A DNA stretch of 64,000 nt. Source: Methylocystis echinoides (GTDB taxonomy: Bacteria > Pseudomonadota > Alphaproteobacteria > Rhizobiales > Beijerinckiaceae). The stretch is from contig NZ_CP156084.1 of the NCBI RefSeq assembly GCF_040687965.1, forward strand, positions 448,501-512,500, read 5' to 3'. This document shows positions 36,248 to 61,473 of the stretch, piece after piece; position 1 is the stretch's first letter; every line of letters starts with the position of its first letter. Position numbers and translations under genes: made by a program. The notes under the pieces were generated by a model, which was not told the DNA's origin, made no database searches, and saw only the letters and a list, made by a program, of their open reading frames with translations.

Positions 36248-36494
36248 TCGCGCGATTGGCTCACGTCTTTTCACGTGGGCGGGGCAGCTTGGAAAGTATG
36301 GCGCTACGCCCGCTCGAAGGGCTGACGCCTGGGTGCAGACGACCCACGAACTTGGGCGCGCGGGCGCCGGTTCGCCCGCCCAGGCGCGCTCCTTGGGCCT
36401 CGAGCCGCCCTAGGAGCCATCTGAGGCGCTCAAAAAGCAGGCACATGAGCGCCCCCTCTCCCCGTTTTCCGTCCCCCCCCCACAGAAATCGTGA

Positions 36495-36626
36495 TCACGG
36501 TTCCATGAAGTAGCAGGCGCTGCCATCAAAATTGTTGAAGCCTTCGGGGGCCGCGGAGGCGGTGCTGGCGAAGCCGACGCTCAGGGTCAGAGCGATGGCG
36601 GCGACGATAGTGGTCAGCTTGGTCAT
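36495..36626 (-). CDS. 43-residue secreted peptide
   Basis: From ATG 36626 (GGGAG six bases upstream): a good signal peptide (MTKLTTIVAAIALTLSVGFA) with Ala-rich cleavage near ASAAP, leaving a mature peptide of only about 18 residues (EGFNNFDGSACYFMEP). Its size excludes an enzyme. Family unknown; the clear signal peptide and ribosome site support expression. Confidence 0.5.
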   Translation of the reverse strand: MTKLTTIVAAIALTLSVGFASTASAAPEGFNNFDGSACYFMEP

Positions 36627-36780
36627 GATCGGCTCCCTCATTTCTCTCTTCTCGTTCGATGGGCTGAGAGAAGCCGAACCCAAACCAGTTGGAGGTGCGC
36701 TGCCGCACGCACACGCAGCATCGGGCGCCATGACTTCTGGCGCGGGAGCATGAGTCGCAGAAAGGCGCGCCGACACAGGA

Positions 36781-38257: not shown

Positions 38258-38811
38258 GTCGTGACTGTCGGAAACGACGGGCGGGTTCAGGGAACGTTAG
38301 AGAGCCGTAGTCGCAGCCCTTGTGGGAAGCACAGCGGCCGGCAGCAAGCCAGTGGGCGCTATACCGAAAAGAGCGAAAGCATCGGCAAGAGGCGGGACCT
38401 CTGGCGATCCGATGTGTCGTTGTCACGCCAGGGATGTGCAACGCGCGGACTGGGCCTTTTGATAAGGCGCTTGCACTCGCCGACATTTGCGCTTTTGATG
38501 ACTCCTGGCCGATGGGTTTATTGGCCGCTTGTGCGACATCGGAACGCTACGTCTAGCCTGCGCTGCGTGCGCCGGGCGACCCCGATAACAATCGTAATGA
38601 TTAAGATCTGCCAGTTCAGATACGCGGAATCGGCTAAGGTCCCAGGGTGAAATTGCTCTTGTAACCCAATATTTCATTGCATTACGCCGCCGCCACTATG
38701 GCTAAGAGAAAAGCTCGCGGCTTCGAAAGCGGCTCGGACACGTTGGCAGAAAAGCGAGCGGACTAAGTGCAAGCTGCGCAGACTTAGCGCACATTGATTT
38801 CGAGGGTCATC
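38258..38811. other. Intergenic stretch without a supported gene
   Basis: About 550 bases with several open frames on both strands but none with a recognisable domain or ribosome site. The promoter of the di-haem lipoprotein gene should lie near its right end. Confidence 0.4.
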
Positions 38812-40929
38812 ATGAACAAATTGCTCGCGATCCTGTTGCTCGCGCTGTCAATCGCAGGCTGCGAGAAAGAAAAAAGCCAGGGCATTTCGGAAGACATCAG
38901 CGCATGGCGGGTTGCGGAAAGCGACCCGATCGCAACTGTGGGGCATGGCGCGATTTTCAATCGCGAAGGGGAAGAAATCAATCCGTCGCCCGAGGCCGTC
39001 ATCGACGCGCAGAGGTTTTACCTCAAGAAATTATACGGTTTGATGGACGAGCGGCGGCGCGGCGAATTCATCGCGGCCCAGCGTGGCCTGAACGAATTCA
39101 AATCCCGGTCCCAGTCTGAAGACATCCTGGCCAACGCCGCGCTGATCGCGCGCTTCATCGATGCGGCAGAACAGCGGGAGGCGCCGTTTTTAGCCAGCAA
39201 GAACGCCGCCCTGCTGGCGCGTTTCGTGCGGATAACGGATGATGGAGTTGAGACGAAGGACCCGCCTTCGGGCGGAATCCGTAAGGAGTTCTTTGATTAT
39301 CTCAGGCGTCAAAATCTGCTGACTTTTTACGCCGCCACGAATGCCGGGGGAGCAAGCTATCTGGAGGAATGCCGCAAGTCGGGCGTGCCGCTGCCGTCGG
39401 ATTGGGGAAGTCCAAATTGGCAATCGCGCGGCAAATTAAACATGAAGTTCATCAGCAGCGGCATCGAAGCGGAACTGTTCGCAATCGAGAGCGAGTCGCC
39501 CCGCGGCGTTTGCTTCGCTTTGCCGAGATCGGCGGGCGACACGATCAGCCTTCTCGGGATCATCTGTCTTGGCGTCGACACAAGCAAATCCTGCTATTGG
39601 GACAACCAACGCAACAAGCAGCAATATGATATTCCAAAAAATACGCCTGTTTCGATATCGGGCTTTGCTGGCGGGGCCGACCTGCAGGGCGGCACGGGAG
39701 GCGTTTGCACAGACTGTCACGCCGGAGAAAATCCCTACATCGTGCATCCCGCAGAGCCGATGGATCTGGGTTCCAAAATCATTCCCAAGACTTGGCTGGA
39801 ACCGCTGGTTCATCCGAGCTGGCCGCAAAACCCCGGGCCGACCAACGCTCTGCAGGGAATCACGTTGACTTCAGGCGAGAGTTCCTGCTCCTCCTGTCAC
39901 GACAGGCCTCCGGGCCGCCGTTTTCCCGAGGTTTCGACGGCGACGCCGGGCTATTGTTCGATCATCCTGCCCAAGGCGATCAAATTCACGATGCCGCCGA
40001 GCAATCCTGGCAACAACGCGTCTTACGCCAAGCATAAGGACGCGCTGACCGCCGCCTGCGCACAACCGCCCTCAGGCGGCATCGTCATCAATGGCGCCAC
40101 GCAAACGGAGCCGACGTCGAGCCGCAGCGACACCGGCGGCGACCTCAGCGCCTGCGCGCCAAGCGGGGACTGTCCGCTCGGATTCTGCTACTGGCGTACG
40201 TTACATGGACCGTTTTGGCAAACGACGAAGTCCGAAATCCCGATTGGCGACGCCAATTATCGCGGCGGGTTCGCCCGCATCTACGCCGACGGCGGCAAAT
40301 GGAAGTGGCGCGCCTTCGTCGATCCCACCGGTGGACCAGCCACCGCGCCGCCGGGCGGAACGGCCGAATGTGTCAATTACAATCAGATTGCCTCGGTTCC
40401 AGACCCCAAGAACTGCTACGCAAACATGTTCACTGTTTTCGATCCCGATGGCTCTCGCCTGGCGCAAAACATCGACGCCACCGTCACCGGCGCGGCGTCA
40501 GCAAACGTATTGTCGGGTTTTATCGGCAACGTTGCGATCGCCAATGCAGACAAGCGTCCTGACAAGCTCCACGTCTTCGAGACGGCCGGCAAAATCGCAT
40601 TGCTGCAGGAGCACGCGCCGCCCTCCGGACTCAGACCCATGACCGGCGAATCCTGGACAAACGGATGCGCCGCGTGGTCGCCGCCGTTTGCAGCGACCGA
40701 GGTCCTTTCCACGTCGGATGTGCAGCTCGCGCCGTCCGACCAAGCCAATGATGTGCGATGCTACATCACCGGAATCACCGGCGCCTGGGCCAGCACGCGC
40801 GACGGCGGAAAAGCTCAACCCTTCGCGGAAATCTATAAGGGGCCGAACAAGGATATCCGGCTGCGCGTCTCGCCCGCAGGAGAAAACGACCGGGTAGGAG
40901 CCTATGCGTCGTGCGTTCGTTTGAAGTAA
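38812..40929 (+). CDS. Large lipoprotein with two c-type haem motifs
   Basis: About 705 residues. MNKLLAILLLALSIAGC is a lipoprotein signal with the lipobox IAGC, so the protein is probably anchored to an envelope membrane. Two C-x2-C-H motifs, CTDCHAGE (about residue 303) and CSSCHDRP (about residue 363), predict two covalently bound haems. The remaining segments show no domain I know; many other Cys residues could form disulphides. ATG 38812 has GAGGG nearby. It stands alone between gene-poor stretches. A role in electron transfer or envelope redox chemistry is plausible, but no partner enzyme is encoded close by. Confidence 0.75.
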   Translation: MNKLLAILLLALSIAGCEKEKSQGISEDISAWRVAESDPIATVGHGAIFNREGEEINPSPEAVIDAQRFYLKKLYGLMDERRRGEFIAAQRGLNEFKSRSQSEDILANAALIARFIDAAEQREAPFLASKNAALLARFVRITDDGVETKDPPSGGIRKEFFDYLRRQNLLTFYAATNAGGASYLEECRKSGVPLPSDWGSPNWQSRGKLNMKFISSGIEAELFAIESESPRGVCFALPRSAGDTISLLGIICLGVDTSKSCYWDNQRNKQQYDIPKNTPVSISGFAGGADLQGGTGGVCTDCHAGENPYIVHPAEPMDLGSKIIPKTWLEPLVHPSWPQNPGPTNALQGITLTSGESSCSSCHDRPPGRRFPEVSTATPGYCSIILPKAIKFTMPPSNPGNNASYAKHKDALTAACAQPPSGGIVINGATQTEPTSSRSDTGGDLSACAPSGDCPLGFCYWRTLHGPFWQTTKSEIPIGDANYRGGFARIYADGGKWKWRAFVDPTGGPATAPPGGTAECVNYNQIASVPDPKNCYANMFTVFDPDGSRLAQNIDATVTGAASANVLSGFIGNVAIANADKRPDKLHVFETAGKIALLQEHAPPSGLRPMTGESWTNGCAAWSPPFAATEVLSTSDVQLAPSDQANDVRCYITGITGAWASTRDGGKAQPFAEIYKGPNKDIRLRVSPAGENDRVGAYASCVRLK

Positions 40930-41174
40930 GCGCGGGGTAACGCCCCTCCTTGACATGTAGCCCAAACTCGAGCGCCGAAGCACATCTGCGCATGTGAGGA
41001 GGCCAAGCTAAACGAGCGACGCCAACCGAAGCAGCCACGAGGCCAGCGATGGCGCTCACGGTTGACGCGCTGCACATGAGCGGCCCGCCCTCTTGTCGGG
41101 CAGACCGCTCACGGCCGGAGATGCAATTTATACTGAACCCCCGTCAGTTAAGCGACCAAGCGCCTGCCCGTGAA

Positions 41175-41190
41175 TTCGTAGAACTACGAA
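41175..41190. promoter_or_regulatory. Perfect inverted repeat, candidate operator
   Basis: TTCGTAG-AA-CTACGAA, about 200 bp before the secreted repeat-protein gene. Symmetry and position suit a dimeric regulator. No regulator can be linked to it here. Confidence 0.4.
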
Positions 41191-41343
41191 CTACGCAGCG
41201 CACCCATCCGGCGAGGCGCGCGCGGTAACCACCTAGGAAAAATACTTACCCAATTTGGGTGCCCTCCCGACCCTGCAGGGTAATCCGAATTTAGCCAAAG
41301 AGGCGTCTAGCGCTTCCACGGAGCGGAGATAAAATTCCTAGCA

Positions 41344-41364
41344 GAAGCTAAGAAACGTAGCTTC
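41344..41364 (+). promoter_or_regulatory. Leader hairpin before the repeat-protein gene
   Basis: GAAGCTA and TAGCTTC with a 7-base loop end 23 bp before ATG 41388. It could stabilise the mRNA or affect translation. Confidence 0.35.
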
Positions 41365-41387
41365 TTTGAAGCCCGGAGGATTCTTTT

Positions 41388-41693
41388 ATGAAAAAGCTGC
41401 TTCTCGTTTCGGCCGCTCTGGCCCTTTCCACCACCTTCGCTCTGGCAGGCGGTCTCGACATCAGCCAGTCGCTGAAGCTGAACCAGACGATCGGCGACAC
41501 CTCGAAGGGCGGCTTCGCGCTCAATAAGGCTTTCATCGTGCAGGCGCAGGTTCCGGTCAACCCCGGCCACGGCGACATTACGCAGAAGTTGGACGTTGGC
41601 CAGAGCATCGGCGACACGTCGAAGGGTGGCACGGCCATCAACAAGGGCACGGTTATCCAGGCTCAGGTTCCGCTGAATTTCGGCGCTCCGTGA
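41388..41693 (+). CDS. Secreted protein built of two tandem repeats (curlin-like candidate)
   Basis: The 101-residue product has a signal peptide (MKKLLLVSAALALSTTFALA). The mature part is two near-identical units of about 36 residues, each with Q-x5-GDTSKGG followed by N-K and V/I-QAQVP. Compare LNQTIGDTSKGGFALNKAFI with VGQSIGDTSKGGTAINKGTV. Regularly spaced Gln, Gly and Asn recall curlin-type strand-loop repeats that form amyloid, but the exact curlin consensus is not met. GGAGG lies eight bases before the ATG. It is followed on the same strand by a second secreted Gln/Asn-rich gene, with a strong hairpin between. No curli secretion genes (CsgG/E/F) are visible. Confidence 0.68.
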   Translation: MKKLLLVSAALALSTTFALAGGLDISQSLKLNQTIGDTSKGGFALNKAFIVQAQVPVNPGHGDITQKLDVGQSIGDTSKGGTAINKGTVIQAQVPLNFGAP

Positions 41694-41717
41694 GAATAGC
41701 TCTGCGGTCTTGAAGTT

Positions 41718-41742
41718 GATCGCGGCCACATTGGCCGCGATC
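41718..41742 (+). repeat. Strong hairpin between two secreted-protein genes
   Basis: GATCGCGGCCA (41718-41728) and TGGCCGCGATC (41732-41742) pair perfectly around CAT. There is no T-run after it. Its place between the two genes suggests mRNA processing or differential stability. Confidence 0.6.
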
Positions 41743-41803
41743 GCATCTCCAAAAATACTGAAGCGACCTGTCGTCGCCATTGACGACGGAAGGGAATAGA
41801 CGA

Positions 41804-42139
41804 ATGAAATATTGGCTTATTCCCGTCCTTGCTTGCATTGGCCTGGGCCAGGCGCACGCGGGCGACTTCATCAGCGTCAAGCCGAGCTTCATCGGCGTCA
41901 ACTTCGGCAACAACCCGCTCTTGAGCGCCAAGGCCGGCGTGTCGCTGGGGCAACACAACACCGACAACGCCACCCAGACCAGCCTCGTCAATTTCTACGG
42001 CGTCCAACAAGTCGCCATTGGCAAGGCAGGAAGCTCGCTCAGCAACGATACGACGGTCACTCAAGTCGGGAACCAAAGCTACGCGGGCGTTGGCCAGCAC
42101 ATTGAGTCTTTGCCTCCTTTGCCATCCGGTCAACCCTAG
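41804..42139 (+). CDS. Secreted Gln/Asn-rich protein (curlin-like candidate)
   Basis: About 111 residues. A signal peptide (MKYWLIPVLACIGLGQAHA) precedes a part with regularly placed Gln, Asn and Gly: VSLGQHNTDNATQTSLVN and SNDTTVTQVGNQSYAGVGQ. In the latter, Gln residues 11 apart with Q-x-G inside match the spacing of curlin repeats. The ATG at 41804 has an A/G-rich ribosome site (GGAAGGG) upstream. It is probably co-transcribed with the repeat protein at 41388-41693. It may form a surface fibre or matrix with it, which is an inference. Confidence 0.65.
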   Translation: MKYWLIPVLACIGLGQAHAGDFISVKPSFIGVNFGNNPLLSAKAGVSLGQHNTDNATQTSLVNFYGVQQVAIGKAGSSLSNDTTVTQVGNQSYAGVGQHIESLPPLPSGQP

Positions 42140-42203
42140 TTGACCCCGGCGGGCCGATAAATGGGACGCAGGACACTGACGATGGCGTGCGGAGGTGGGG
42201 GCC

Positions 42204-42632
42204 ATGTTCAAATCAGATTGGCCACATCACGAGCACGAATGGCGCAACTCTAAACGCGCTATTTTAGCTTATCACGTCGGCGGCTGGCGCGAGGGCGAGT
42301 CGCCGCTCGACGCCCTCGCCCGGGCTCTCGGCGTTTCGACGCACAATATTCAATTAGAGTCGACCGACTCCGCGGCCGACGAACTTGATCACCTTTCGGC
42401 CTGTCTCGGCGAAGACTGGGTCGACTTGTCGGGGCTTAACATCGCCGAAAGCGTCGCCCTCGCAATATCGGTGCTCAACGAAAAGCTCCGAGTCATTCCG
42501 CCTGAGGTCCGCGCCTTCTTTGATGCGCCGCGCAAGCTCGAGCCTTTACAGACCACCCATATTTTTAACGAGCCACGCGCCCGCTTGAATTGTGGCTCGG
42601 TTCGATACAGGAGCGAGCCACGGAACAGGTAG
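42204..42632 (+). CDS. Hypothetical protein
   Basis: About 142 residues starting MFKSDWPHHEHEWRNSKRAI, with GGAGGTG upstream of ATG 42204. A helical segment (LDALARALGVSTHNIQLEST) and an acidic middle (DELDHLSACLGEDWVDLSGL) give a cytosolic, soluble look. No recognised domain or motif. It follows the curlin-like pair on the same strand by 64 bp and may be part of that unit. Confidence 0.55.
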   Translation: MFKSDWPHHEHEWRNSKRAILAYHVGGWREGESPLDALARALGVSTHNIQLESTDSAADELDHLSACLGEDWVDLSGLNIAESVALAISVLNEKLRVIPPEVRAFFDAPRKLEPLQTTHIFNEPRARLNCGSVRYRSEPRNR

Positions 42633-42649
42633 CCTTATTTACCGAGCGC

Positions 42650-43012
42650 TTATTTCGAAAAGGCTCGTTTGACGGCGATGGGCAGCAGTTCAGCCAATAG
42701 CTCGCGCGCTCGATCAACGGGCATTTCCGCCTTCTCTGCCATCGTGCGGAGGTCCCTCCAGCCCATGAGCTGCAACGCCTCGACGGAGTTGATGGGGAGG
42801 GGGCGATCTGAATCCCAGGAACGCACCTTGCCGATGAAGCCGGCGCTTTCAAAACGCCGCCTCACTTCGTCAATTCCACCCTGGGACTTAATGTAATCCT
42901 GCAGCAGGCCGAGCACTTTATCCCGTTCGTTCCGTTCGACCGTAACGATAACGGCTGAGGCCGGAACAAATGCGAAGGAGAAAAACTCGAAGAGGCGATT
43001 GATCCAGTTCAT
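42650..43012 (-). CDS. YidB-like (DUF937) protein
   Basis: About 120 residues beginning MNWINRLFEFFSFAF. The C-terminal half has VRSWDSDRPLPINSVEALQL followed by MAEKAEMPVDRARELLAELL, the pattern of the YidB/DUF937 family. These small proteins are of unknown function, often several per genome. ATG 43012 with GAGGGTGAC before it is clearly the start. It converges with the hypothetical gene at 42204-42632. Confidence 0.7.
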   Translation of the reverse strand: MNWINRLFEFFSFAFVPASAVIVTVERNERDKVLGLLQDYIKSQGGIDEVRRRFESAGFIGKVRSWDSDRPLPINSVEALQLMGWRDLRTMAEKAEMPVDRARELLAELLPIAVKRAFSK

Positions 43013-43043
43013 GTCACCCTCTAGCTTCATGCAACGGCTTCGG

Positions 43044-43280
43044 TTAACTGCCCCCATTATTGGGGCCAGAATAGGTCGCGTTCCTTGTGACTTCGTAAAT
43101 GCCGGCCCGGTTGCAGCGACTGATTCCGATCTCGTGGCAATCTTTGCATGTGGCGACCTCGCCCTTGCGCACTTGTGCGCCGGCCTCGGCCCATTGCTTA
43201 TAGGCCAACCAGGCGCCGGAGCCCGATACGCGCGAGGTCCTTGCTGGGAGCGCCCACAGCGCGAACCTCGCGGAGAGCAT
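43044..43280 (-). CDS. Possible small c-type cytochrome-like protein
   Basis: The frame from ATG 43280 gives 78 residues with one haem-binding motif, CKDCH, in GEVATCKDCHEIGISRCNRA. There is no convincing signal peptide or ribosome site, so either the start is wrong or the gene is decayed. It lies between the YidB-like gene and the small Cys-rich secreted protein gene. Confidence 0.3.
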   Translation of the reverse strand: MLSARFALWALPARTSRVSGSGAWLAYKQWAEAGAQVRKGEVATCKDCHEIGISRCNRAGIYEVTRNATYSGPNNGGS

Positions 43281-43362
43281 GGCGGCTATGAGTGGTTCAA
43301 AGGTTGTCGACAGCGACCGCCTGTGCGCCACTTCAGCTTGGCTTAAGCTTCGGGGAAACTGC

Positions 43363-43581
43363 TCACCTGAAACAACGAAGCGTGCCGTTTGGCATGCGAG
43401 TGGCTGGATGGCCGGTCCTTCTGAGGCACCAATCCTGATTTTGGCCGCCGAACACGCAATAACCCCACGCATTGCGGTGCCCGTTTGGACCGCAGCCGCC
43501 CAACGCCAAAGCAGGCGTAGCTACCGAAGATAACGAGGCCGAAAGAATTGCGGCGCAAAGCACAGCGGACAATTTCTTCAT
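43363..43581 (-). CDS. Small secreted Cys-rich hypothetical protein
   Basis: The 72-residue product has a signal peptide (KLSAVLCAAILSASLSSVA, cleavage near TPALA) and a mature part of about 47 residues with four Cys (GCGPNGHRNAWGYCVFGGQN, DWCLRR, LRCF). These could make two disulphides. AGGTGG precedes the ATG at 43581. The GCGPNGHRN-type start is common in short alphaproteobacterial exported proteins of unknown role. Confidence 0.68.
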   Translation of the reverse strand: MKKLSAVLCAAILSASLSSVATPALALGGCGPNGHRNAWGYCVFGGQNQDWCLRRTGHPATRMPNGTLRCFR

Positions 43582-43905
43582 GATCCACCTATTTTTTTCG
43601 CCATCGTCACAAATGGCGATTTTGATGTTATCATGAGGAATTAACCTGGCTAGGTCAGGTAGAATTTTCAGTCAGGAGGCTTACCCGCCCCTCGCCGTTC
43701 TCAAGAGAGATTGAAGTCCGCCGCTCGCGCGCTCGCGTGGAAGGGTTCCAGCGTGCTTGCAATGAGCAAGACAGCCGGCGCGACGAGAGCAAGATTGCTG
43801 CGCTCTTTGTCAAGTCCGCACGAAACAAGGCTCGCAAGCCTCCCGGGGTTTGCCTGAAAAAGGAAGACAAACACCTTAACCAGCTACACTTCTGCTTAAG
43901 CAGCG
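43582..43905. other. Intergenic stretch without a supported gene
   Basis: About 324 bases. The promoter of the Cys-rich protein gene must lie near 43600-43680, where the sequence is AT-rich. I see nothing else. Confidence 0.4.
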
Positions 43906-44172
43906 TCACAGTGGGTAGTCGCGAATAGGATCGATGCCGGCCTCTGCAAGGAATTTACGCAGGGCTGCAACCTCGTCTTTTGAAAGGCTATGGTGGGTGT
44001 CGTGAAACCCATGTGCGACGCCATTCAACGTGACCAACAAATGGTTGTGCCGGCTATGGGTGACTTCAGCGCCAAGTTCTTCCAGCATTGATTTGACGAT
44101 CTTCGGATCGATATTGCTGCTCATAGGGTGCGAAAACAAGGCATGCAGAGCTGTCCGATGCTTATGGTTCAT
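43906..44172 (-). CDS. Small His-rich hypothetical protein (weakly HicA-like)
   Basis: The 88-residue protein has a compact alpha/beta pattern: VKSMLEELGAEVTHSRHNHL, then LLVTLNGVAHGFHDTHHSLS and VAALRKFLAEAGIDP. The helix, His-containing strand and closing helix recall HicA-type small RNA-binding folds, but no HicB partner is adjacent and the resemblance is weak. GGGA lies seven bases before ATG 44172; a second ATG lies at 44124. Function not assigned. Confidence 0.55.
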   Translation of the reverse strand: MNHKHRTALHALFSHPMSSNIDPKIVKSMLEELGAEVTHSRHNHLLVTLNGVAHGFHDTHHSLSKDEVAALRKFLAEAGIDPIRDYPL

Positions 44173-44367
44173 TCGCGTTCCCTTCTTACCGCAAGAGTCC
44201 TTTCGTAATTAATTGCATGACGCAGATGCGATCCGCTGCAATAAAGAGACGTGGCCTATCCCCAGCGCCCGCTGAGCACAGCCGCAACATGCCCCGGGCC
44301 GAGTTGCTAATTGCGAGGGGCGACCGTTGACGATCTGCTTTGAGCAAACATAGAGCCACGCCCTGGT

Positions 44368-44439
44368 TTAGAGGCGCGTTAGGGTCACCGCGAGAATTAT
44401 GACCATAGCCAGCATGCAAATTGGAATGAGCCATCCCAT
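44368..44439 (-). CDS. 23-residue single-span membrane microprotein
   Basis: ATG 44439 with a perfect GGAGG five bases upstream; the product is MGWLIPICMLAMVIILAV plus TLTRL. It is almost only a membrane helix with a basic end. The frame is also open upstream, but the ribosome site favours the short form. Confidence 0.5.
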   Translation of the reverse strand: MGWLIPICMLAMVIILAVTLTRL

Positions 44440-44631
44440 TCGAACCTCCCTGGGCTGAGGGCCGTCTACTTGTCTTAGCCACTTCACGCGATCATCCCAA
44501 CTGAGCGGCCGGTTTCTGTCAAGCGCTACCGGCTCAACCCTGGCTGCCAAGGTGAAGAACCCCGTCCGAGCAAGCCTCAGCGAGGCACTCGACATGGGCC
44601 TGAGAGCGAGGCCGATATCGGTTCGCGTTCG

Positions 44632-44910
44632 CTAGCGTATTGATCCTTCACTTCGCGCTTGCATCCTGTTCCACACCCACGCGCCGGTGTAGCCGATGAC
44701 ATAGCCGAACACAGCCGTCATCAGGACGAGTGTCGCTGCCGCCGAAGGATTGAAAGGCCCGATCACGATGCTAAGACGGATCATGTGCGCCCACAGGATG
44801 AAGTCATAGATCGCCTGACCAACTCCTGTGGCGACCAGGACCGACCACACGAGGTGCCATCCTCCGAGCAGCGCGGCTCCGACTAAACCGACCCTATTCT
44901 TGTCCGCCAT
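44632..44910 (-). CDS. Small membrane protein with three hydrophobic segments
   Basis: The 92-residue product has hydrophobic helices at about residues 8-27, 33-52 and 58-80 (segments VGLVGAALLGGWHLVWSVLV, DFILWAHMIRLSIVI, LVLMTAVFGYVIGYTGAWVW). GGAGG lies five bases before ATG 44910. A widespread type of small inner-membrane protein of unknown function; no motif beyond the helices is visible. Confidence 0.68.
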   Translation of the reverse strand: MADKNRVGLVGAALLGGWHLVWSVLVATGVGQAIYDFILWAHMIRLSIVIGPFNPSAAATLVLMTAVFGYVIGYTGAWVWNRMQARSEGSIR

Positions 44911-44986
44911 CGTCTCCTCCCCTCCCCCCTCGATAGTGAGAAGAGTTAGCGCGGTTGTGAAAGGCGCAGAGGTACGATGCCGGTAG

Positions 44987-45139
44987 ATGCACCCTGTGCA
45001 GTCCCTCTATGACTGGATCGAAACGGCTTCGACGCTGTCGGTAGACTTTTGGTTTGGCAGACTTTTGGGCGGCGTCGTTTCAGCCCATGCCGTGGCAGTT
45101 CAACTCGTGATCCTCCCCCGCAAGCGCTTTGATCAATAA
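44987..45139 (+). CDS. 50-residue hypothetical (low confidence)
   Basis: ATG 44987 to TAA 45137 encodes a peptide with an acidic/aromatic start (MHPVQSLYDWIETAS) and a modestly hydrophobic middle (FGRLLGGVVSAHAVAVQLV). There is no good ribosome site. It is divergent from the small membrane protein gene. The call rests on composition only. Confidence 0.3.
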   Translation: MHPVQSLYDWIETASTLSVDFWFGRLLGGVVSAHAVAVQLVILPRKRFDQ

Positions 45140-45324
45140 CTGCATGAGGCTGGGTGTATGGGGGGGCAAAGAGACCACCGCCCGCTTTCGCTACGCGGAG
45201 CGATGCTCCCTTATCGGACTTAAGCTGCTAAGCCCACAACCTCAGATGTCTGTCATTCGATGAGTTCCGCGCCATCATAATTGTTCATCCTGGCCAAATA
45301 GCGGCCCCGTGATGGCAAAGGCCA

Positions 45325-45582
45325 ATGACTACTCTCAAACCAACCGTTCTGACGCTGGCGCTTTTAGTAACGCCTACAGCTGTCGCGGCACAAGGCTTCG
45401 CTCAGTTCGGATTCAATCCGACTGTTCTAGCGCCATCGGCACGACTCTGGCTGCCACAGGGAGGCATAATAATCGTACCTCCGCAGAGGGCAGTACGATG
45501 GGGTGCAGCCCCGTTGGGACGAAGGATCTATCCCGCAGTGCGCATCTACAGCTACAAACCGTTTATCGACGAGAAACCTTGA
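45325..45582 (+). CDS. Small secreted hypothetical protein
   Basis: The 85-residue product has a signal peptide (LKPTVLTLALLVTPTAVAAQ) and a mature part of about 62 residues with no Cys, several Arg and Pro (IIIVPPQRAVRWGAAPLGRR), and a terminal segment VRIYSYKPFIDEKP. AAAGG lies before the ATG. Family unknown. It is one of several short exported proteins in the 43-46 kb stretch. Confidence 0.55.
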   Translation: MTTLKPTVLTLALLVTPTAVAAQGFAQFGFNPTVLAPSARLWLPQGGIIIVPPQRAVRWGAAPLGRRIYPAVRIYSYKPFIDEKP

Positions 45583-45994
45583 TTTCAGCAACTCTCATCA
45601 AGTCTCGTGACCGAGACGGCCCGCTGCTGCTGCCTCGGAGCGGGCACGGTTCAGGGCAATGGTCAGGCTGAAACTGATCCAGTGCGGAAAGTACGACGCA
45701 ACCCCGATCGGAGGCGCCGCTAGCGCCATGGCTCAGCGTAATTGATCTGATGGGCACCCGCTGATAGGTCCAATTGGAGTATGCGCGTGTCGGACATGGC
45801 TGCATCGCAGCGAGCAGGTTCTTGTTGCAAGTCAGAAAGAGGTTCGGACTGCCAAGCCAACCTGATTAAGCTTCCGTTCACCGTCTCGTCGTTGCCCTGT
45901 TCGCTCCTGGCATAGAATAATTTATGATTTTCCAGTCGAGCTCTCCCCCGCTTCACGAAAGGCGAGTCGCAGAGTTCAAATTGGAAAGAGCAAA
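45583..45994. other. Intergenic stretch without a supported gene
   Basis: About 410 bases. Short frames are present on the minus strand, but none has a domain or a clear ribosome site. Confidence 0.4.
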
Positions 45995-46435
45995 ATGCAA
46001 AAATACCTCGGTGTTTTTGTGATTGGTGGAATAGTAGGCTTTGCCTGCGCGACCACCTTCAGCCCGAAGGTGGTCGTCAGCCAAAACCCTGTGCAAGCAG
46101 CCCCGGCTCTGACGATTGCAGTCGACGATCCACCCAATGAACACGTCCGGCACATGCGTGTCCATAAGACACCCACAGAGATAGAGGAAGCCCCGAAAGC
46201 GAGCCAAGCTTCGGCTGCCGATGAGCAAGCCAAACTATCAGTCGATGAAACACCCACCGGTTTGATCAAGCACTCCAAGCCCAGGAAGGTTAAGCTCGCT
46301 TCAAACAAGAAAAGGAAGATTGAAGGCGAGCAGGAGGCGGCCACCGGACAAGCGCCTCCAGCTGAAATCGAAAGTCCACCTCCTCGTGGCTTTTTCGAGA
46401 CACTGTTTCAAGGCAATTTCACTAACCCGCGTTGA
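45995..46435 (+). CDS. Membrane-anchored, charged hypothetical protein
   Basis: The 146-residue protein has one N-terminal hydrophobic segment (YLGVFVIGGIVGFACATTF), then a long Pro-, Glu- and Lys-rich low-complexity region and a short aromatic end (GFFETLFQGNFTN). The helix probably acts as an anchor or an uncleaved signal, placing the flexible part in the periplasm. GGAAAGAG is upstream of the ATG. It converges with the min operon, and a hairpin lies between. No function assigned. Confidence 0.6.
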   Translation: MQKYLGVFVIGGIVGFACATTFSPKVVVSQNPVQAAPALTIAVDDPPNEHVRHMRVHKTPTEIEEAPKASQASAADEQAKLSVDETPTGLIKHSKPRKVKLASNKKRKIEGEQEAATGQAPPAEIESPPPRGFFETLFQGNFTNPR

Positions 46436-46457
46436 TTAGAGCGGATAGGCTCATTCA

Positions 46458-46476
46458 CGCGGCCGCCTTTGCCGCG
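46458..46476. terminator. Hairpin between convergent genes
   Basis: CGCGGC (46458-46463) and GCCGCG (46471-46476) with a 7-base loop, located between the ends of the charged protein gene and the min operon. No long T-run, so termination is only probable. Confidence 0.4.
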
Positions 46477-46485
46477 AGTCTCATC

Positions 46486-47544
46486 TCACTTTGTGACGGT
46501 AAGCGAAACGCGCTGCCCTTGCCCACTGGTTTCCGTTGCATCGCCTGAGCGTTCGACGCGGTCGCGTCTGACTACCTGGGCGGTTATGCGCGATTTGTAG
46601 CCGCTGCGCGACAGCGCGCGAATGACGCTGTTCGCGCGAGCCCTCGAGAGCTTTGAGCCCGGCGCTCCTTTTGTGAATCCGTCGACATAGGCGTTCACGG
46701 AGATTCTGAGTTTCGGTCGCTGCGCCAAAATATTCGCAATATTCTGCAACTGCTCAGCAGACGCGGGGGTCAATATGGCGCTCGTCGGGCCAAAGCCAAT
46801 CCTATCGAGATCGAATTCGCTGGAGCCGACTGACTCCTGTTTTAAAAAATCAGCGAGTCTTGTCTCGACGCTGAAGGCGGGAATGACGGTTTCCTTGTTG
46901 CTCTGAACCTTCATCTGCTCGCCGCTATCGAGGCTGCGAGTCATGGGCTGCACTGGCGTCGCATGGCCTTCCTCTCCCCGCGCCATGAGTTCTGACGACG
47001 AGGGCGACGACGGGCTCACGGCCGCTTCGCTCGTTTTCGTCGGAACAGGTTCATCGAGAGGCGGAAGCGATATTTTTTCCGATTGCGCCGACAACGCTGT
47101 CTCGGGCGAGCCCGTCGTCGCTTCGCTCTTATTGAGCCACCATGCCGCACCGCCCATGACGAGAATTACCGCAGCAGCCGAGAGCAAGGAAAGTTGTGAA
47201 CGAAATGCTCCACCCATGTTTGCCGACGCAGCGATCGGTTGACTGATCGTTTCGGCCGCAGCCGCTCCGGTCGATGGCGGAAAAGCGCTCTGCAACGGCG
47301 CGATCTCCGATGGCTCGGCCGACTTTTCATTTTTGACCTCGATCTCGCGAGCGCAAGGATCGTCGCACCCCGAGGGCTTCACGTCATTTTTGTCCGGGAC
47401 GACCGGGACATGCTCGATCGGTGCAGACAGAGCCTGCTGTTGCGCGCCGCCGACGATGGGCGGCTCCTCGGTTGCGGTGTTCCGCTCGCGTGCAAAGATT
47501 GTTTGCAGGCGCCCGCGCGCGATCGACGCCGAGGTGTCACTCAT
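46486..47544 (-). CDS. MinE-like N-terminal peptide fused to membrane anchor and OmpA-like domain
   Basis: A 352-residue protein encoded directly after minD, with an ATGA overlap (start 47544, minD stop 47541). Residues 4-22 read TSASIARGRLQTIFARERN and match the anti-MinCD helix of MinE (SA-x2-AR-x-RLQ-x3-A-x-ER in rhizobial MinE). The dimerisation (topological specificity) domain of MinE is absent. A disordered Pro/Glu-rich linker (about 25-115) leads to one membrane span (about 117-137), a second linker and an OmpA-like domain (about 244-352). There Asp288 and Arg303 occupy the positions that bind diaminopimelate of peptidoglycan. The predicted topology puts the MinE-like helix in the cytoplasm and the OmpA domain in the periplasm. 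It probably replaces MinE in the Min system. The alternative is an unrelated PG-binding protein with a chance match, which the gene position makes unlikely. Confidence 0.85.
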   Translation of the reverse strand: MSDTSASIARGRLQTIFARERNTATEEPPIVGGAQQQALSAPIEHVPVVPDKNDVKPSGCDDPCAREIEVKNEKSAEPSEIAPLQSAFPPSTGAAAAETISQPIAASANMGGAFRSQLSLLSAAAVILVMGGAAWWLNKSEATTGSPETALSAQSEKISLPPLDEPVPTKTSEAAVSPSSPSSSELMARGEEGHATPVQPMTRSLDSGEQMKVQSNKETVIPAFSVETRLADFLKQESVGSSEFDLDRIGFGPTSAILTPASAEQLQNIANILAQRPKLRISVNAYVDGFTKGAPGSKLSRARANSVIRALSRSGYKSRITAQVVRRDRVERSGDATETSGQGQRVSLTVTK

Positions 47545-48356
47545 GCCGCCCTCCGACCTAACAATCTGCCAAGGAGACCCTGCCTCTTTGTGGGGGTATC
47601 GAAAGCTGTGCCGGCGCCGCACAACCGCCGCGCGGCCTCAGCATAGGCGCGGGCTGGAGCGCTCGCGGGCTTATGCAGCGTGATGGGTGAGCCGAGATTC
47701 GAAGCGGATAAAACCTCTTCGCTTTCAGGCACGACGCCGAGAAGCGGGAGCGCCAAAATCTCGACCACGTCGTCGACGCTCAACATGCTTCTGTGGGCGG
47801 CGCGGCCGGCGTCATAGCGTGTGAGCAGCAAATGCTTCTCGAGCTGCTCGCCTCTCTCGGCGCGTTCGGTCTTGGCGTCGAGCAGGCCAATAATTCGATC
47901 GGAATCGCGCACCGAAGAAACTTCGGCGTTGGTGACGATGACCGCGATGTCCGCGAAGCGCATCGCCAAAGTAGCCCCAACTTCGATTCCCGCCGGGCTA
48001 TCGCAAATAACCCAGTCGAATTGCTCGCGCAGCTCGTCGACGACGCGGCGCACGCCGGATTCTGTGAGGGCATCCTTGTCCTGCGTCTGCGAGGCTGGCA
48101 GGAGATGCAAATTGTTAAGGTCTGCGCAAGGGATCAGCGCATCGTTCAGCTTCGCGTCGCCTTGCATCACGTTAATGAGGTCGTGGGCGACGCGCTGCTC
48201 CACGCCCATCACGAGATCAAGGTTCCGCAGGCCGATGTCGAAATCGACAACGACGACCTTCTGGCCCGCTTGGGCCAGAGCGGTTCCGAGAGCGGCGGTT
48301 GACGTCGTCTTTCCAACGCCTCCCTTACCGGAGGTAACGACCACAACTTTGGGCAT
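47541..48356 (-). CDS. minD: Septum site-determining protein MinD
   Basis: The 271-residue protein shows the deviant Walker A of MinD (VVVTSGKGGVGKTTSTAALG), the switch region VVVVDFDIGLRNLDLVMGVE and the ATP-site segment FDWVICDSPAGIEVGATLAM. The C-terminus, KRQGLLGRLLGRRAA, is the amphipathic membrane-targeting helix. MinD binds the membrane in its ATP form, recruits MinC to block FtsZ ring formation away from mid-cell, and is released by MinE. It lies 12 bp after minC and overlaps the MinE-like fusion gene by 4 bp, so minC, minD and the fusion form one operon. Confidence 0.97.
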   Translation of the reverse strand: MPKVVVVTSGKGGVGKTTSTAALGTALAQAGQKVVVVDFDIGLRNLDLVMGVEQRVAHDLINVMQGDAKLNDALIPCADLNNLHLLPASQTQDKDALTESGVRRVVDELREQFDWVICDSPAGIEVGATLAMRFADIAVIVTNAEVSSVRDSDRIIGLLDAKTERAERGEQLEKHLLLTRYDAGRAAHRSMLSVDDVVEILALPLLGVVPESEEVLSASNLGSPITLHKPASAPARAYAEAARRLCGAGTAFDTPTKRQGLLGRLLGRRAA

Positions 48357-48368
48357 GTGTTGCGCCTC

Positions 48369-49169
48369 TCAGTCAAACCTTGCGATTCTGATCTTCTGGT
48401 CCTCCAACCAAACTTGGACGGCCTGGCCGACGAGATTCGCGTCGATTTTTTCCGCCGTCATATAGACGCCGTTGACGGCTATGAGTTCGGCTTCGAGCCG
48501 GCGGCAAAAAATGCGGGCGCGCGCGTCGCCGTAGGCCCCGGCCATGACTCGTCCGCGTGCGGTTCCGTAAATATGGATCGATCCGCCGGCGACGACCTCG
48601 GAGCCCCAGGCGACCGAACCGATCACCGTCACGTCGTTCCTGCAAACGATAGATTGTCCGGAGCGCACCGGCTCTTCTACGACAAGCGGCGCGACGACCG
48701 CCGCGGGGGCGCCAGCATAGTCGGGCGATGAACGTCTTTGTTCCGCCTGCGGTCCGTTTCGAGTTTCGGCCGTCTCGTCGAAGCCGAGCGGTTCCTCTCG
48801 AGCAATCGCACCGGAAGTCCCGTCGCTTGAAGTTGCGAGGCCTGGTTTGCCGACGGTTGCAGGGGCGCGACCGCAGCTCAGGATTGGAGGAAGATCATCC
48901 GACGCCCACGAGGAATCTAAGCCTGAAAGGCCTATGATGCGAATGCGTCGCCGAGACAGGGATTCTACTAACGCCATCAAATCGGCGCGCCCGATGCTCA
49001 GTTTCGACACGTCGACGACGATCGGCTTCTTGGCGAACGACACCGGGAAGCGCGCCAAATATTCGTCGAGCCGGACGATCCAGTCGGGGACCGGCGCTTC
49101 CGGCTCGAGCGCGAGAAGAGGAAAGGACAGGCCTCGAAATCGGATGTGCTGAGCGAAAGATTGTGTCAT
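48369..49169 (-). CDS. minC: Septum site-determining protein MinC
   Basis: The 266-residue protein has an N-terminal MinC domain (FRGLSFPLLALEPEAPVPDW; FAKKPIVVDVSKLS) and a linker of about 60 residues rich in Ser, Gly and Glu. The C-terminal beta-helix domain includes PVRSGQSIVCRNDVTVIGSV, GGSIHIYGTARGRVMAG, AELIAVNGVY, and a MinD-contact region. MinC inhibits FtsZ polymerisation at the poles. First gene of the min operon; a CtrA-type site lies 43 bp upstream of its ATG (49169). Confidence 0.95.
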   Translation of the reverse strand: MTQSFAQHIRFRGLSFPLLALEPEAPVPDWIVRLDEYLARFPVSFAKKPIVVDVSKLSIGRADLMALVESLSRRRIRIIGLSGLDSSWASDDLPPILSCGRAPATVGKPGLATSSDGTSGAIAREEPLGFDETAETRNGPQAEQRRSSPDYAGAPAAVVAPLVVEEPVRSGQSIVCRNDVTVIGSVAWGSEVVAGGSIHIYGTARGRVMAGAYGDARARIFCRRLEAELIAVNGVYMTAEKIDANLVGQAVQVWLEDQKIRIARFD

Positions 49170-49549
49170 GTCCGACTCTCGACGGGATAGAAGAGTTTCG
49201 CCTCGATATGGTTAACTGAGTGTTAACGCCTTGTCTTCGAGGCTTAAATTGTGTCGCAAACGCCAATTCTGATTTGTGGGCGATGCATCGGGGACGCACG
49301 CGACCCTTTGTCGAGCGCGCGGAAGGCAAAGAAATACTTCGAACCTCGAGATTTAAAGAATCAATCCGGTCGTGTCCAATCGCAATTGCGTTGGGGATTT
49401 GAGTGCGCTCGGAAATCTTTCGAGCGGCGCCTTGTCATCTTTCATGGCGCGCAGATCGTGTCGCGAAGATGCAATTCGGCCTGGGGCAGCCTTGCTCTTT
49501 TGTATGCCTTCGCGCCGACTCGCGCCAAGCGGCCTTCGTCTCGCGTCGT
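49170..49549. promoter_or_regulatory. Promoter region of the min operon
   Basis: About 380 bases between the min operon and the next gene on the same strand. The part next to minC contains the CtrA-type site at 49212-49227. No coding frame is supported in the rest. Confidence 0.55.
49212..49227. promoter_or_regulatory. CtrA-type binding site, TTAA-N7-TTAAC
   Basis: TTAACTGAGTGTTAAC reads as TTAA-N7-TTAAC on both strands, the established consensus of the alphaproteobacterial cell-cycle regulator CtrA. It lies 43 bp upstream of the minC start, a distance fitting a promoter-proximal activator or repressor site. Confidence 0.65.
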
Positions 49550-49852
49550 TTAATTGCCACCTGCTTTTTCGATGAATGTCGCTCTCATCTCGCTGGCCCT
49601 CGTTGTGGCTAAGGTTTGTTCTCGCTCGCCGGAGAAGGACAGCGCGTTGCAAGCGACGCTTGGCGGGAAAAAGCCGTCGACCAGAGCTTTGGCTTGGGTC
49701 ACCACTTCGCTGCGTTGATTCGATTCGCGCGTCGAGGGAGGTTCTTTGCAGGCAAACATGTCGCCGGGAGGATAAATAAAGACGATCCACCCAGGCCCGA
49801 ACGTCCGTATTTCCAACCGGTGGCCCCGGTAATATTCTATTTCTTCCGCCAT
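49550..49852 (-). CDS. Small hypothetical protein
   Basis: The 100-residue protein begins MAEEIEYYRGHRLEIRTFG and has a central beta pattern (GPGWIVFIYPPGD) followed by SEVVTQAKALVDGFF. That YRGHRLEIR...VIYPP...AKALVD pattern recalls short conserved hypotheticals of methylobacteria and bradyrhizobia. The remainder (after about residue 65) is polar and perhaps disordered. ATG 49852 is the first in frame. Cytosolic, no signal peptide. No function known to me. Confidence 0.6.
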   Translation of the reverse strand: MAEEIEYYRGHRLEIRTFGPGWIVFIYPPGDMFACKEPPSTRESNQRSEVVTQAKALVDGFFPPSVACNALSFSGEREQTLATTRASEMRATFIEKAGGN

Positions 49853-51528: not shown

Positions 51529-51602
51529 TGGCTGGGGGACCTGGATTCGAACCAAGATTAACGGAGTCAGAGTCCGCTGTTCTACCGTTGAACTATCCCC
51601 CA
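51529..51602 (-). tRNA. tRNA-Gln (anticodon CTG)
   Basis: Reverse complement of 51529-51602 folds as a tRNA. The acceptor stem is TGGGGGA/TCCCCCA, the T-arm contains GGTTCGAATCC, and the anticodon stem-loop is GCGGA-CTCTGAC-TCCGT with anticodon CTG (reads CAG, glutamine). The CCA end is encoded. tRNA 3' ends are common integration targets, but the only integrase in the window is 15 kb away. Confidence 0.95.
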
Positions 51603-59541: not shown

Positions 59542-61473
59542 ATGACCCAGCAGATGGGGGCGGAGCCGCGCGCCGCCGCAGGAGCGGCCGGCCATCATGA
59601 ACAGGGGCATGAGCACGGCAAGGGGGGATTTCTCGGTCTCATCGTCGGCTCGATCGGAGTCGTTTACGGCGACATCGGCACGAGCCCGCTTTACGCTCTA
59701 CGCGAGTCGCTCGCCCATGAGGCGCAGGCCGACGCATTGACGGAAGAAGGCGTTATCGGCTCGATCTCGCTACTGATCTTCGCGCTGATTTTCACCGTCA
59801 CGATCAAATATATTTTCTTCGTCATGCGCGCCGACAACCGCGGCGAAGGCGGCATTCTCTCGCTGATGGCGCTGGCGCAGACGGCGCTCGGCCGCCAGAC
59901 GCGGATCGCCTTCCTGCTCGGCGTCGGCGGCGCGGCGTTATTCGCCGGCGAGGCGATGATTACGCCGGCGATCTCGGTGCTCTCCGCCATTGAGGGCCTC
60001 GAACTGGTGACGCATCGCTTCAGCGAATATGTGATGCCGATCACCATTTTCATTCTGGTGACGCTGTTCTGGGTGCAAAGCCACGGCACGGCGCGGGTGG
60101 CCGCCCTGTTCGGGCCGATAATGCTGGTGTTTTTCCTCACGCTCGGCGTGCTCGGCGCGTCGCATATCGCCGACGCGCCGCAGGTGGTCGGGGCTTTCGA
60201 TCCGCGCCGCGGCGTCGTCTTTCTCCTCACCCATGGCTGGCTCGGCTTCGCCGTGCTCGGCTCCGTTTTTCTGGCGGTCACGGGCGTCGAGGCGCTTTAC
60301 GCCGACATGGGCCACTTCGGCCGCCGCCCGATCCAGTTCGCCTGGCTGTTCTTCGTATTGCCGGCGCTACTCTTGAATTATCTGGGCCAGGGGGCGCTGG
60401 TTTTGTCGCGGCCGGAGGCGGTCGGCAATCCATTCTTTCTGATGGCGCCCGACTGGCTGCTGCTGCCGCTCGTCATCCTCTCGACCCTGGCGACGACGAT
60501 CGCGGCGCAAGCGGTCATCACCGGCGCGTTTTCGCTCTCGCGGCAGGCGATCCAGCTCGGGCTGCTGCCGCGCCTCGAAATCACCCACACCTCCGCGATG
60601 CTGGAAGGCCAGATCTACATCGGCCGCATTAATCGCCTGCTGCTGGTCGGCGTGCTGCTCCTGGTCATCGCCTTCAAGAGCTCGTCGGCGCTCGCTTCCG
60701 CTTATGGCATCGCCGTCACGGGCACCATGGTGCTCTCCACCTCATTGCTCTTTATCGTCGCCTGGCGCAAATGGGGCTGGCCGCTCTGGCTCGCGATCGT
60801 CTTCGCGGCCTCCTTCCTCATCGTCGAATTCACCTTCCTTGCCGCGAACATGCTCAAGATCAAGGAGGGCGGCTGGGTGCCGTTGGTGCTCGGCGGCTGC
60901 GTGATGATTGTCATGTGGACCTGGGTGCGCGGCACGCGGCTTCTTGCGGAAAAGACCCATCGCGACTCGATTCCGATCATGGATCTGATCGGCATGCTGC
61001 AGAAATCGAAACCGACCCGGGTGCCGGGAACAGCGATCTTTTTGACCAGCGATCCCAAGGTGGCGCCGGCGGCGCTCATGCACAACATCAAGCACAACAA
61101 GGTGCTGCACGAACGCGTGCTGATCATCTGCGTGCGAACCGAGAACCGCCCGCGCGTTGCGCCCGAAAAGCGCTTCGAGCTGCAGAAGCTCTCCGACGAC
61201 TTCGCCAGCGCCGTTTTGCATTTCGGCTTCATGGAAAGCCCGCGCGTGCCGGCCGCCTTGGCGCTGATGCGCAAGTCGGGCTTCAAATATGACATCATGA
61301 CGACGAGCTTCTTCCTCGGCCGGCGCACAATCAAGGAGAGCGCGGCGTCCGAGATGCCCGTCTGGCAGGACAAGCTCTATGTCGCCTTGACGAAGCAGGC
61401 GGCGAACGCCACGGACTTTTTCTCGATCCCCTCCGACCGCGTCGTCGAGCTTGGCGCGCAGGTCACGATCTGA
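59542..61473 (+). CDS. kup: Kup-family potassium uptake protein (copy 1)
   Basis: The 643-residue protein has twelve hydrophobic segments and the KUP hallmarks: SIGVVYGDIGTSPLYALRES, then MRADNRGEGGILSLMALAQT, SVLSAIEGLELVTHR, GSVFLAVTGVEALYADMGHF and a cytosolic C-terminal part of about 180 residues. KUP proteins import K+ with protons. It is followed in the same direction by a close paralogue (61668-63584) after 194 bp. ATG 59542. Confidence 0.95.
   Translation: MTQQMGAEPRAAAGAAGHHEQGHEHGKGGFLGLIVGSIGVVYGDIGTSPLYALRESLAHEAQADALTEEGVIGSISLLIFALIFTVTIKYIFFVMRADNRGEGGILSLMALAQTALGRQTRIAFLLGVGGAALFAGEAMITPAISVLSAIEGLELVTHRFSEYVMPITIFILVTLFWVQSHGTARVAALFGPIMLVFFLTLGVLGASHIADAPQVVGAFDPRRGVVFLLTHGWLGFAVLGSVFLAVTGVEALYADMGHFGRRPIQFAWLFFVLPALLLNYLGQGALVLSRPEAVGNPFFLMAPDWLLLPLVILSTLATTIAAQAVITGAFSLSRQAIQLGLLPRLEITHTSAMLEGQIYIGRINRLLLVGVLLLVIAFKSSSALASAYGIAVTGTMVLSTSLLFIVAWRKWGWPLWLAIVFAASFLIVEFTFLAANMLKIKEGGWVPLVLGGCVMIVMWTWVRGTRLLAEKTHRDSIPIMDLIGMLQKSKPTRVPGTAIFLTSDPKVAPAALMHNIKHNKVLHERVLIICVRTENRPRVAPEKRFELQKLSDDFASAVLHFGFMESPRVPAALALMRKSGFKYDIMTTSFFLGRRTIKESAASEMPVWQDKLYVALTKQAANATDFFSIPSDRVVELGAQVTI

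Follow-up and report, generated by a model that had tools for sequence, protein, structure and literature searches.

The best-studied biological oscillator, the Min system, has the mobility of MinE as its basis, and a static counterpart is found in the MinJ-DivIVA Min system of Bacillus subtilis, in which the cue for MinCD is membrane-anchored and an adaptor does the recruiting. As described in the accessible text of PMC6803595, MinE uses its contact helix to bind MinD and set off hydrolysis, at a site on MinD helix 7 that overlaps the MinC site. In the available part of PMC6922632, the peptide MinE(13-31) is reported to stimulate MinD and to form no patterns alone, patterns being restored by MinE(1-31) with its membrane-targeting sequence or by a dimer module. 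The accessible text of PMC7993993 presents ParA/MinD ATPase activators as modular, with a short N-terminal extension: in PomX, ParB/Spo0J, SopB and MinE alike, the activating peptide is short, N-terminal and attached to an unrelated body. A natural MinE bolted to the envelope would be the experiment that synthetic biologists have approximated with membrane-bound MinE peptides.

Here we analyze a gene predicted to encode such a protein in Methylocystis echinoides. It lies in a 64,000-nucleotide stretch of contig NZ_CP156084.1 (positions 448,501 to 512,500), which we call the window and to which coordinates refer unless stated otherwise. The host assembly comprises 4 contigs (4.35 Mb, estimated 100% complete) and contains two pmoA/amoA-type genes (PF02461, E=2.1e-107 each), and the organism is therefore probably a methanotroph. 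Three genes on the minus strand, with all three reading frames intact, form an operon that we call min2. The first, minC2 (48369-49169), encodes a 266-aa protein that scores 152.5 bits against TIGR01222, above the curated cut-off of 95.25, and 100.3 bits against PF03775, with the N-domain model PF05209 reaching 22.0 bits, under its cut-off of 27.3. The second, minD2 (47541-48356), encodes a 271-aa protein with 318.7 bits against TIGR01968 (curated cut-off 212.9), which also aligns with the MinD encoded elsewhere in the same genome. MinD2 has the Walker A motif GKGGVGKT, the helix 7 segment EVSSVRDSDR and a basic C-terminal tail GLLGRLLGRRAA; alignment and reading of the sequence show that MinD2 retains VSSVRDSDR and MinC2 its RSGQ motif, and that the Pro preceding VSSVRDSDR is replaced by Ala in both of the MinDs linked to a fusion. 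Among the PADLOC defence models, only a partial match to MinD was obtained, at its P-loop end, with two models of one candidate system.

The third gene runs from an ATG at 47544 to a stop at 46486 and overlaps minD2 by ATGA. A preliminary description of this DNA had placed a 352-aa protein at these coordinates as the third gene of a minC-minD operon with this overlap, and the open reading frames confirm it, adding the minus strand, which had not been given. A second genome of the genus (G018) has the same minD-ATGA-fusion gene order and the same order of domains within the protein, so the fusion is not an assembly artefact.

The hydrophilic N-terminus of the protein carries the contact-helix pattern of MinE, SASIARGRLQTIFARERN. 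When both fusions are aligned with 13 canonical MinEs, the residues A-R-x-R-L-Q...A-x-E-R are kept in both, and the window's contact helix spans residues 4-22 (47479-47535, minus strand), an assignment that also draws on a predicted helix and on the NCBIfam model PRK00296. Scores against single family models are low. PF03776 gives the window fusion 12.1 bits with hmmscan and 14.7 in a genome search (cut-off 25), and PRK00296 gives E=5.1e-4 on the whole protein and E=6.2e-5 on its N-terminal piece (residues 3-59; 22.9 bits, cut-off 58). The preliminary description had made a match to MinE profiles a test of its claim, and the outcome is divided: Pfam does not support it, and NCBIfam does by E-value, though below the model cut-off. 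The G018 fusion scores higher, with 33.3 bits against PRK00296 (E=3.5e-8; cut-off 58) and, against PF03776 (cut-off 25), 24.8 bits in a genome search, 25.5 with the neighbours in frame and 22.6 with hmmscan. Residues 5-87 of the window fusion align with the host's own MinE at 34% identity (29/85 columns). In a PDB search, a profile built from the N-termini of the two fusions matched MinE structures best (6u6p, 1.3e-5; 2kxo, 3.6e-5; 6u6q, 6.4e-5; 3r9j, 0.0036), and no other family appeared below 0.1. The MinE identity of the N-terminus, weak in any single family model, is firm in combination, because the alignment with the host MinE, the PDB matches of the profile, the position of the gene where minE is expected and the scores of the G018 fusion all agree. 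The MinE peptide put forward in the preliminary description is thereby borne out.

The remainder of the MinE part has decayed. Both fusions lose regularity past the contact helix, and the G018 protein has a gap of 12 aligned residues where the first strand region of that domain would lie, in the dimer part. The hydrophobic-basic membrane-targeting start, present in 13 of 13 canonical MinEs, is found in neither fusion. The dimerisation domain had been described as missing. A MinE part of only 22 residues is rejected, as homology extends to about residue 87, and we instead recognize a remnant at residues 23-88 (47281-47478, minus strand), for which, however, the structure prediction gives no fold. 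From 39 aligned rows, AlphaFold2 predicts helix 4-22 (block-mean pLDDT 72 and 79) and leaves residues 23-121 unstructured and free of strands (block means 43-56). With only 15 rows, the control prediction for the host's own MinE returned a contact helix at 13-31, a further helix at 34-49 and strands at 59-66 and 69-76 (block means about 66-85, no residue above 90); the missing dimer fold of the fusion is therefore not simply an effect of a shallow alignment, with the caveat that the control rows include more close relatives than those of the fusion. Within the contact helix, the window fusion has Thr and Gly at the positions that we take to be I24 and E20 of E. coli MinE, respectively, and the G018 fusion leaves ARERLQIL unchanged and keeps Ile at the I24-equivalent position.

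Beyond the MinE part, the anatomy proposed in the preliminary description, a linker, one hydrophobic helix and an OmpA-like domain with D288 and R303, is upheld by hydropathy, PF00691 and the predicted fold, and we regard it as secure. The single hydrophobic, transmembrane helix occupies residues 119-137 (47134-47190, minus strand; hydropathy 1.83) and is predicted at low confidence as helix 122-136 (block means 54 and 53). It is followed by a linker rich in Pro, Ser and Ala at residues 138-220 (46885-47133, minus strand; block-mean pLDDT 40-56). The OmpA-like domain, together with a conserved pre-segment, spans residues 222-352 (46489-46881, minus strand) and exceeds the PF00691 cut-off (34.2 against 27.2 bits); its predicted fold has block means of 75-96 except for 51 at residues 331-340. 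Foldseek matches this domain to 6jfw, 5u1h and 3td5, the last being a complex with a peptidoglycan stem peptide. D288 and R303, which we take to be the peptidoglycan-contact pair, are present, and the equivalent Asp and Arg-Ala are invariant in all 11 aligned tails. The window domain is without the Asn that many relatives have ahead of the LSxxRA motif.

When the locus is set beside the described systems, its resemblance to canonical MinE (PF03776, TIGR01215) lies in the position after minC-minD, the ATGA overlap, the contact helix and the alignable residues 5-87, whereas it differs in lacking the membrane-targeting start, in its decayed dimer domain and in the added helix, linker and OmpA-like domain, which bring it to 352 aa against about 95 aa. 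With the known OmpA-like peptidoglycan-binding domains (PF00691; 3td5, 6jfw and YiaD 2k1s) it shares the fold and the Asp/Arg pair, but here a hydrophobic helix connects the domain with a MinE peptide. Like the synthetic MinE(1-31) and MinE(13-31)-GCN4 of PMC6922632, as these are described in its accessible text, it combines the contact peptide with a membrane or dimer module; unlike them it is natural, and its anchor is a transmembrane helix with a domain of wall-binding type rather than a reversible membrane-targeting sequence. It also resembles the activators treated in the available part of PMC7993993 in placing a short activating peptide at the N-terminus of a body unrelated to it, but the body is membrane-anchored and probably wall-anchored, and the peptide is a true MinE homologue. 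The likeness to MinJ-DivIVA is that of a static, anchored MinCD cue, with the difference that here the anchored part bears a MinE activator peptide.

The tail is not peculiar to this protein. We found related tails on 15 proteins of other kinds (G000:C2:80632-81072, which is L147, together with L148, L149-L156, L158-L160, L162 and L042). Pfam scans of eight of them identified three P-type ATPases (two with Cation_ATPase_C and one without), an FeoAB protein, a TauE/SafE permease, a DUF937 protein from an Acidobacteria MAG, a DUF6692 protein (L155) that has no TM-like segment, and a protein whose only other feature is a single TM-like segment. In all 12 tail proteins that were compared, both MinE fusions included, a hydrophobic helix precedes the linker. 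In the two proteins with Cation_ATPase_C it lies beyond the end of that Pfam match and is therefore an additional helix, and in the TauE protein it may be the last helix of the permease itself. Lys and Arg are commoner in the 25 residues before the helix than after it in nine of the 12 proteins, the exceptions being the window fusion (1 before, 2 after), FeoAB (4 and 6) and the one-TM protein, which ties. This comparison of sequences supports, without proving, a cytoplasmic N-terminus and a periplasmic C-terminus. In its long form, which combines the pre-segment with the OmpA domain, the tail occurs at 16 places (E of at most 2.2e-39) spread over 11 of the 39 genus genomes, some of these places being rows of the search profile itself, and in the host genome it is found only on FeoAB and the MinE fusion. 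The occurrence of these tails on P-type ATPases, FeoAB, TauE and DUF937 proteins points to what is apparently a reusable wall-anchoring module. An origin of the tail from DUF748 (AsmA-like) proteins, suggested by a DUF748 score of 33.3 bits on the fusion (below the cut-off of 50), was rejected, as the full open reading frames scanned are those of P-type ATPases, FeoAB, TauE and others. A 294-aa frame in G031 (L157, on C4), with a P-type-ATPase-like end and an OmpA-like tail, appears to be a fragment of a degraded gene. Among the matches listed from open-access PMC literature, titles and the starts of abstracts describe no P-type ATPase with an OmpA domain.

The fusion had been proposed to replace MinE in this organism. 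This is not the case: the search for a separate minE, whose presence the preliminary description had itself named as speaking against its claim, found one at C1:2520952-2521152 (PF03776, E=1.9e-17), directly after minC and minD. As a complete canonical minCDE is thus present elsewhere in the same genome, min2 is an accessory second Min operon and not a replacement, and the fusion is a real, rare and structurally clear MinE variant within it. MinD2 and the host's canonical MinD share 74% identity, and the canonical MinCDE presumably performs ordinary mid-cell selection.

Full-length fusions were found in only two of the 39 genus genomes, the host and G018, and relics in two more (G025 and G037). 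A protein search of 150 genomes, comprising the host's own and relatives, and a two-row profile search of 397 genomes of the family both returned only the host and G018 over most or all of the length. The sample searches thus find just two full-length carriers, and the fusion is therefore rare. The two proteins are 32% identical in our alignment and 27% by BLAST, with the same domain order. A full-length MinE over the cut-off is present in 21 of the 39 genus genomes, both fusion carriers included, and a MinE over the cut-off in 29 of 385 genomes of the class sample and 157 of 398 of the phylum sample (the samples overlap). None of the 15 class-sample MinE matches with an open frame of at least 200 aa, nor one of 183 aa, runs into a TM/OmpA region, and the same holds for 19 such long-frame MinEs among the matches listed for the phylum (3 shared with the class). 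Three long-frame MinEs considered as further fusions (G222, G277 and G415) were rejected once their frames had been read, as were 16 class-sample loci, of which 15 are ordinary minE genes and one (L114) falls under the cut-off and is not MinE. One of these 15, in G637 (L111), has a longer C-terminal tail rich in Lys, Glu and Ala, its frame extending for 151 aa counted from where the match begins. The viral contigs searched contained no fusion, and the plasmids searched with the window protein likewise contained none, one record matching through the OmpA part of a heavy-metal P-type ATPase of Methylocystis rosea. A scan of genome contigs returned two loci, a relic of the G025 type and the Acidobacteria DUF937-OmpA protein. 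The preliminary description knew of no account of such a fusion, and we too found no MinE-OmpA fusion or membrane-spanning MinE described in the titles and abstract starts of open-access PMC literature, among the matches listed.

The relics, in G037, G025 and RXIY01000027.1, cover residues 54-163 or less at 70-75% identity, and those in G025 and G037 are frames without the MinE start and without the OmpA end. They adjoin a sensor-kinase-like gene, whose frame in G025 runs antisense into the relic. In a midpoint-rooted tree of 27 of the 28 MinD sequences chosen, the MinD of G031 being absent, the two fusion-linked MinDs group together in a single clade (support 99/96), and the MinD2 branch is longer than that of its G018 relative (0.25 vs 0.094). 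Between these two, minD shows dN 0.134 and dS 0.86. For the fusions themselves, pN and pS are 0.35 and 0.61 over residues 1-30, 0.44 and 0.55 over residues 31-112, and 0.42 and 0.80 over the OmpA part (221-352), so that constraint is lowest in the middle part, where the MinE remnant lies. Synonymous sites approach saturation, and ratios of this type are therefore rough.

From the predicted anatomy, which rests on sequence and structure modeling, we lean towards min2 being an accessory minC2-minD2-minE2 operon in which MinE2 would act as an anchored activator of the MinD ATPase. In such a mechanism the cytoplasmic N-terminus would bind membrane-bound MinD2-ATP, and perhaps MinD1 as well, and the contact helix would displace MinC and trigger ATP hydrolysis, while the OmpA-like domain would hold MinE2 to peptidoglycan. 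MinD2 and MinC2 would then be cleared wherever anchored MinE2 is concentrated. The ATPase chemistry would be the same, and the expected pattern would be static instead of a pole-to-pole oscillation, because an anchored activator could not cycle through the cytosol. The Thr at the I24 position of the window fusion is compatible with a contact helix that is permanently open: a truncated I24N MinE has been crystallised with MinD, a truncated I24N form is described as the active state, and L3E/I24N MinE is reported to be a non-switching mutant. The G018 fusion, however, has Ile there.

A one-dimensional Min model behaves in keeping with this expectation. With cytosolic MinE, both of two runs gave pole-to-pole oscillation (8 sign changes in 160 s), and with anchored MinE none of seven did. 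At the lower dose the anchored runs gave a single static or slowly drifting patch (four runs, 2 polar and 2 off-centre), at two higher doses they reached a uniform state (two runs), and with the anchored MinE placed at mid-cell they gave unequal static polar zones with depletion at mid-cell (one run). The rate constants are literature values, and the model describes the effect of anchoring within it and not the behaviour of the protein. The idea, raised in the preliminary description, of a fixed or slowly moving partner is supported, and the different mode of division-site selection that it predicted is a possible consequence.

Three other readings of the same evidence were weighed. The fusion might chiefly clear the canonical MinC1D1 from one envelope site, with MinC2D2 secondary; this overlaps with the anchored-activator reading, so the likelihoods attached to these readings do not sum to one, and we judge it rather unlikely as the main role. 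MinD1 and MinD2 share 74% identity and have the VSSVRDSDR segment in common, MinCD inhibition in E. coli can be suppressed by nothing more than the anti-MinCD domain according to the available part of PMC6803595, and the single simulated run with mid-cell MinE produced a static depletion there, but the order of the genes, with minD2 directly before the fusion, and the joint clade of the fusion-linked MinDs favour a private partner. A recruiter of the MinJ kind, holding MinD2 (and MinC2) at a wall site without triggering hydrolysis, seems improbable to us. Membrane-anchored MinCD adaptors do exist, MinJ among them, and the contact helix of the window fusion deviates twice from the canonical one, with Gly for E20 and Thr for I24; against this, ARERLQIL is unchanged in the G018 fusion, the contact region is the MinD-stimulating part of MinE in the accessible text of PMC6803595 and PMC6922632, and MinE forms carrying I24N, each of them truncated or bearing a second mutation, are reported as crystallised with MinD, as the active state or as non-switching mutants.

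The last reading, that min2 is a decaying duplicate, draws on the distribution and we consider it unlikely. On this view a Min set gained by horizontal transfer or by duplication had its MinE captured by a TM-OmpA tail, has no present function and is being lost. Only two of the 39 genus genomes carry the fusion and two more hold relics, most of minC is gone in G018, the MinE dimer domain has decayed, the MinD2 branch is the longer one and a full canonical minCDE is available. The largely missing G018 minC and the relics in G025 and G037 do indicate that cells can dispense with the system, which may be in decay. Agrobacterium, also an alphaproteobacterium, tolerates the loss of Min but misplaces its constrictions (abstract of PMC5900048), and an accessory Min set therefore need not be lethal or essential. 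Against a loss of function in the window stand the three intact reading frames, the retained Walker A and helix 7 segments of MinD2, a dN well under dS for minD and a pN under pS for the OmpA part, and a domain order common to two fusions that have diverged to 32% or 27% identity.

A broader possibility, which we offer tentatively and hold to be somewhat doubtful, is a natural Min module that does not oscillate and in which the signal for clearing MinD would reside in the cell wall itself. A MinE peptide anchored to peptidoglycan would remove MinCD from wall-facing membrane, so that the state of the wall or the identity of the membrane would be read out as a MinD pattern, the wall-facing membrane being told apart from the internal membranes expected in such methanotrophs. 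This would be a single application of a general tail for wall anchoring that these bacteria would add to many inner-membrane proteins.

The genomic surroundings of min2 differ between relatives. The window matches G037 from 53797 down to 51529, where a tRNA-Gln(CTG) gene (51529-51602, minus strand) ends, and its homology to G031 stops at the same gene (to 51503). The operon lies left of this gene and, since homology ends at the tRNA, within a stretch that is unshared there in these two relatives: past the tRNA gene, no homology to the window is seen over 15.8 kb in G037 or over 17 kb in G031, except for one 169-base match. This match, at 36494-36661, is in the opposite orientation and belongs to a repeat with 7 copies in G025 and G037; the repeat is about 145-169 bases long, its copies are 82-88% identical, and it occurs in two of the four genomes searched. 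Pieces of the window between 30000 and 36700 are found elsewhere in the genomes of these relatives. The GC content is 0.55-0.64 across 36-51.5 kb against 0.64-0.73 right of the tRNA gene. A genomic island with two defined borders is unsupported, as its supposed left border is the inverted copy of the 169-base repeat; no second copy of the tRNA 3' end was found in the genome with up to 3 mismatches, no flanking repeat was seen around the unshared stretch, and a 14-base probe gave no match, a result that carries no weight. In G037 the relic (C2, 455 kb) and the region of the tRNA neighbours (1,443 kb) are separate places.

The minD-fusion pair of G018 (C67) sits on a 19.8-kb contig with ParB-type, ArdC, RecD2-type and 1695-aa genes, which suggests a mobile context. 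Most of the minC before minD is gone there, and about 200 bases separate minD from a remnant resembling the start of minC; the corresponding interval in the window is about 700 bases. Around the operon, none of six open reading frames tested at 38794-49852 had a Pfam match at E 1e-4. At 59542-61473 and 61668-63584 the window holds two adjoining Kup-type potassium transporter genes (K_trans and K_trans_C).
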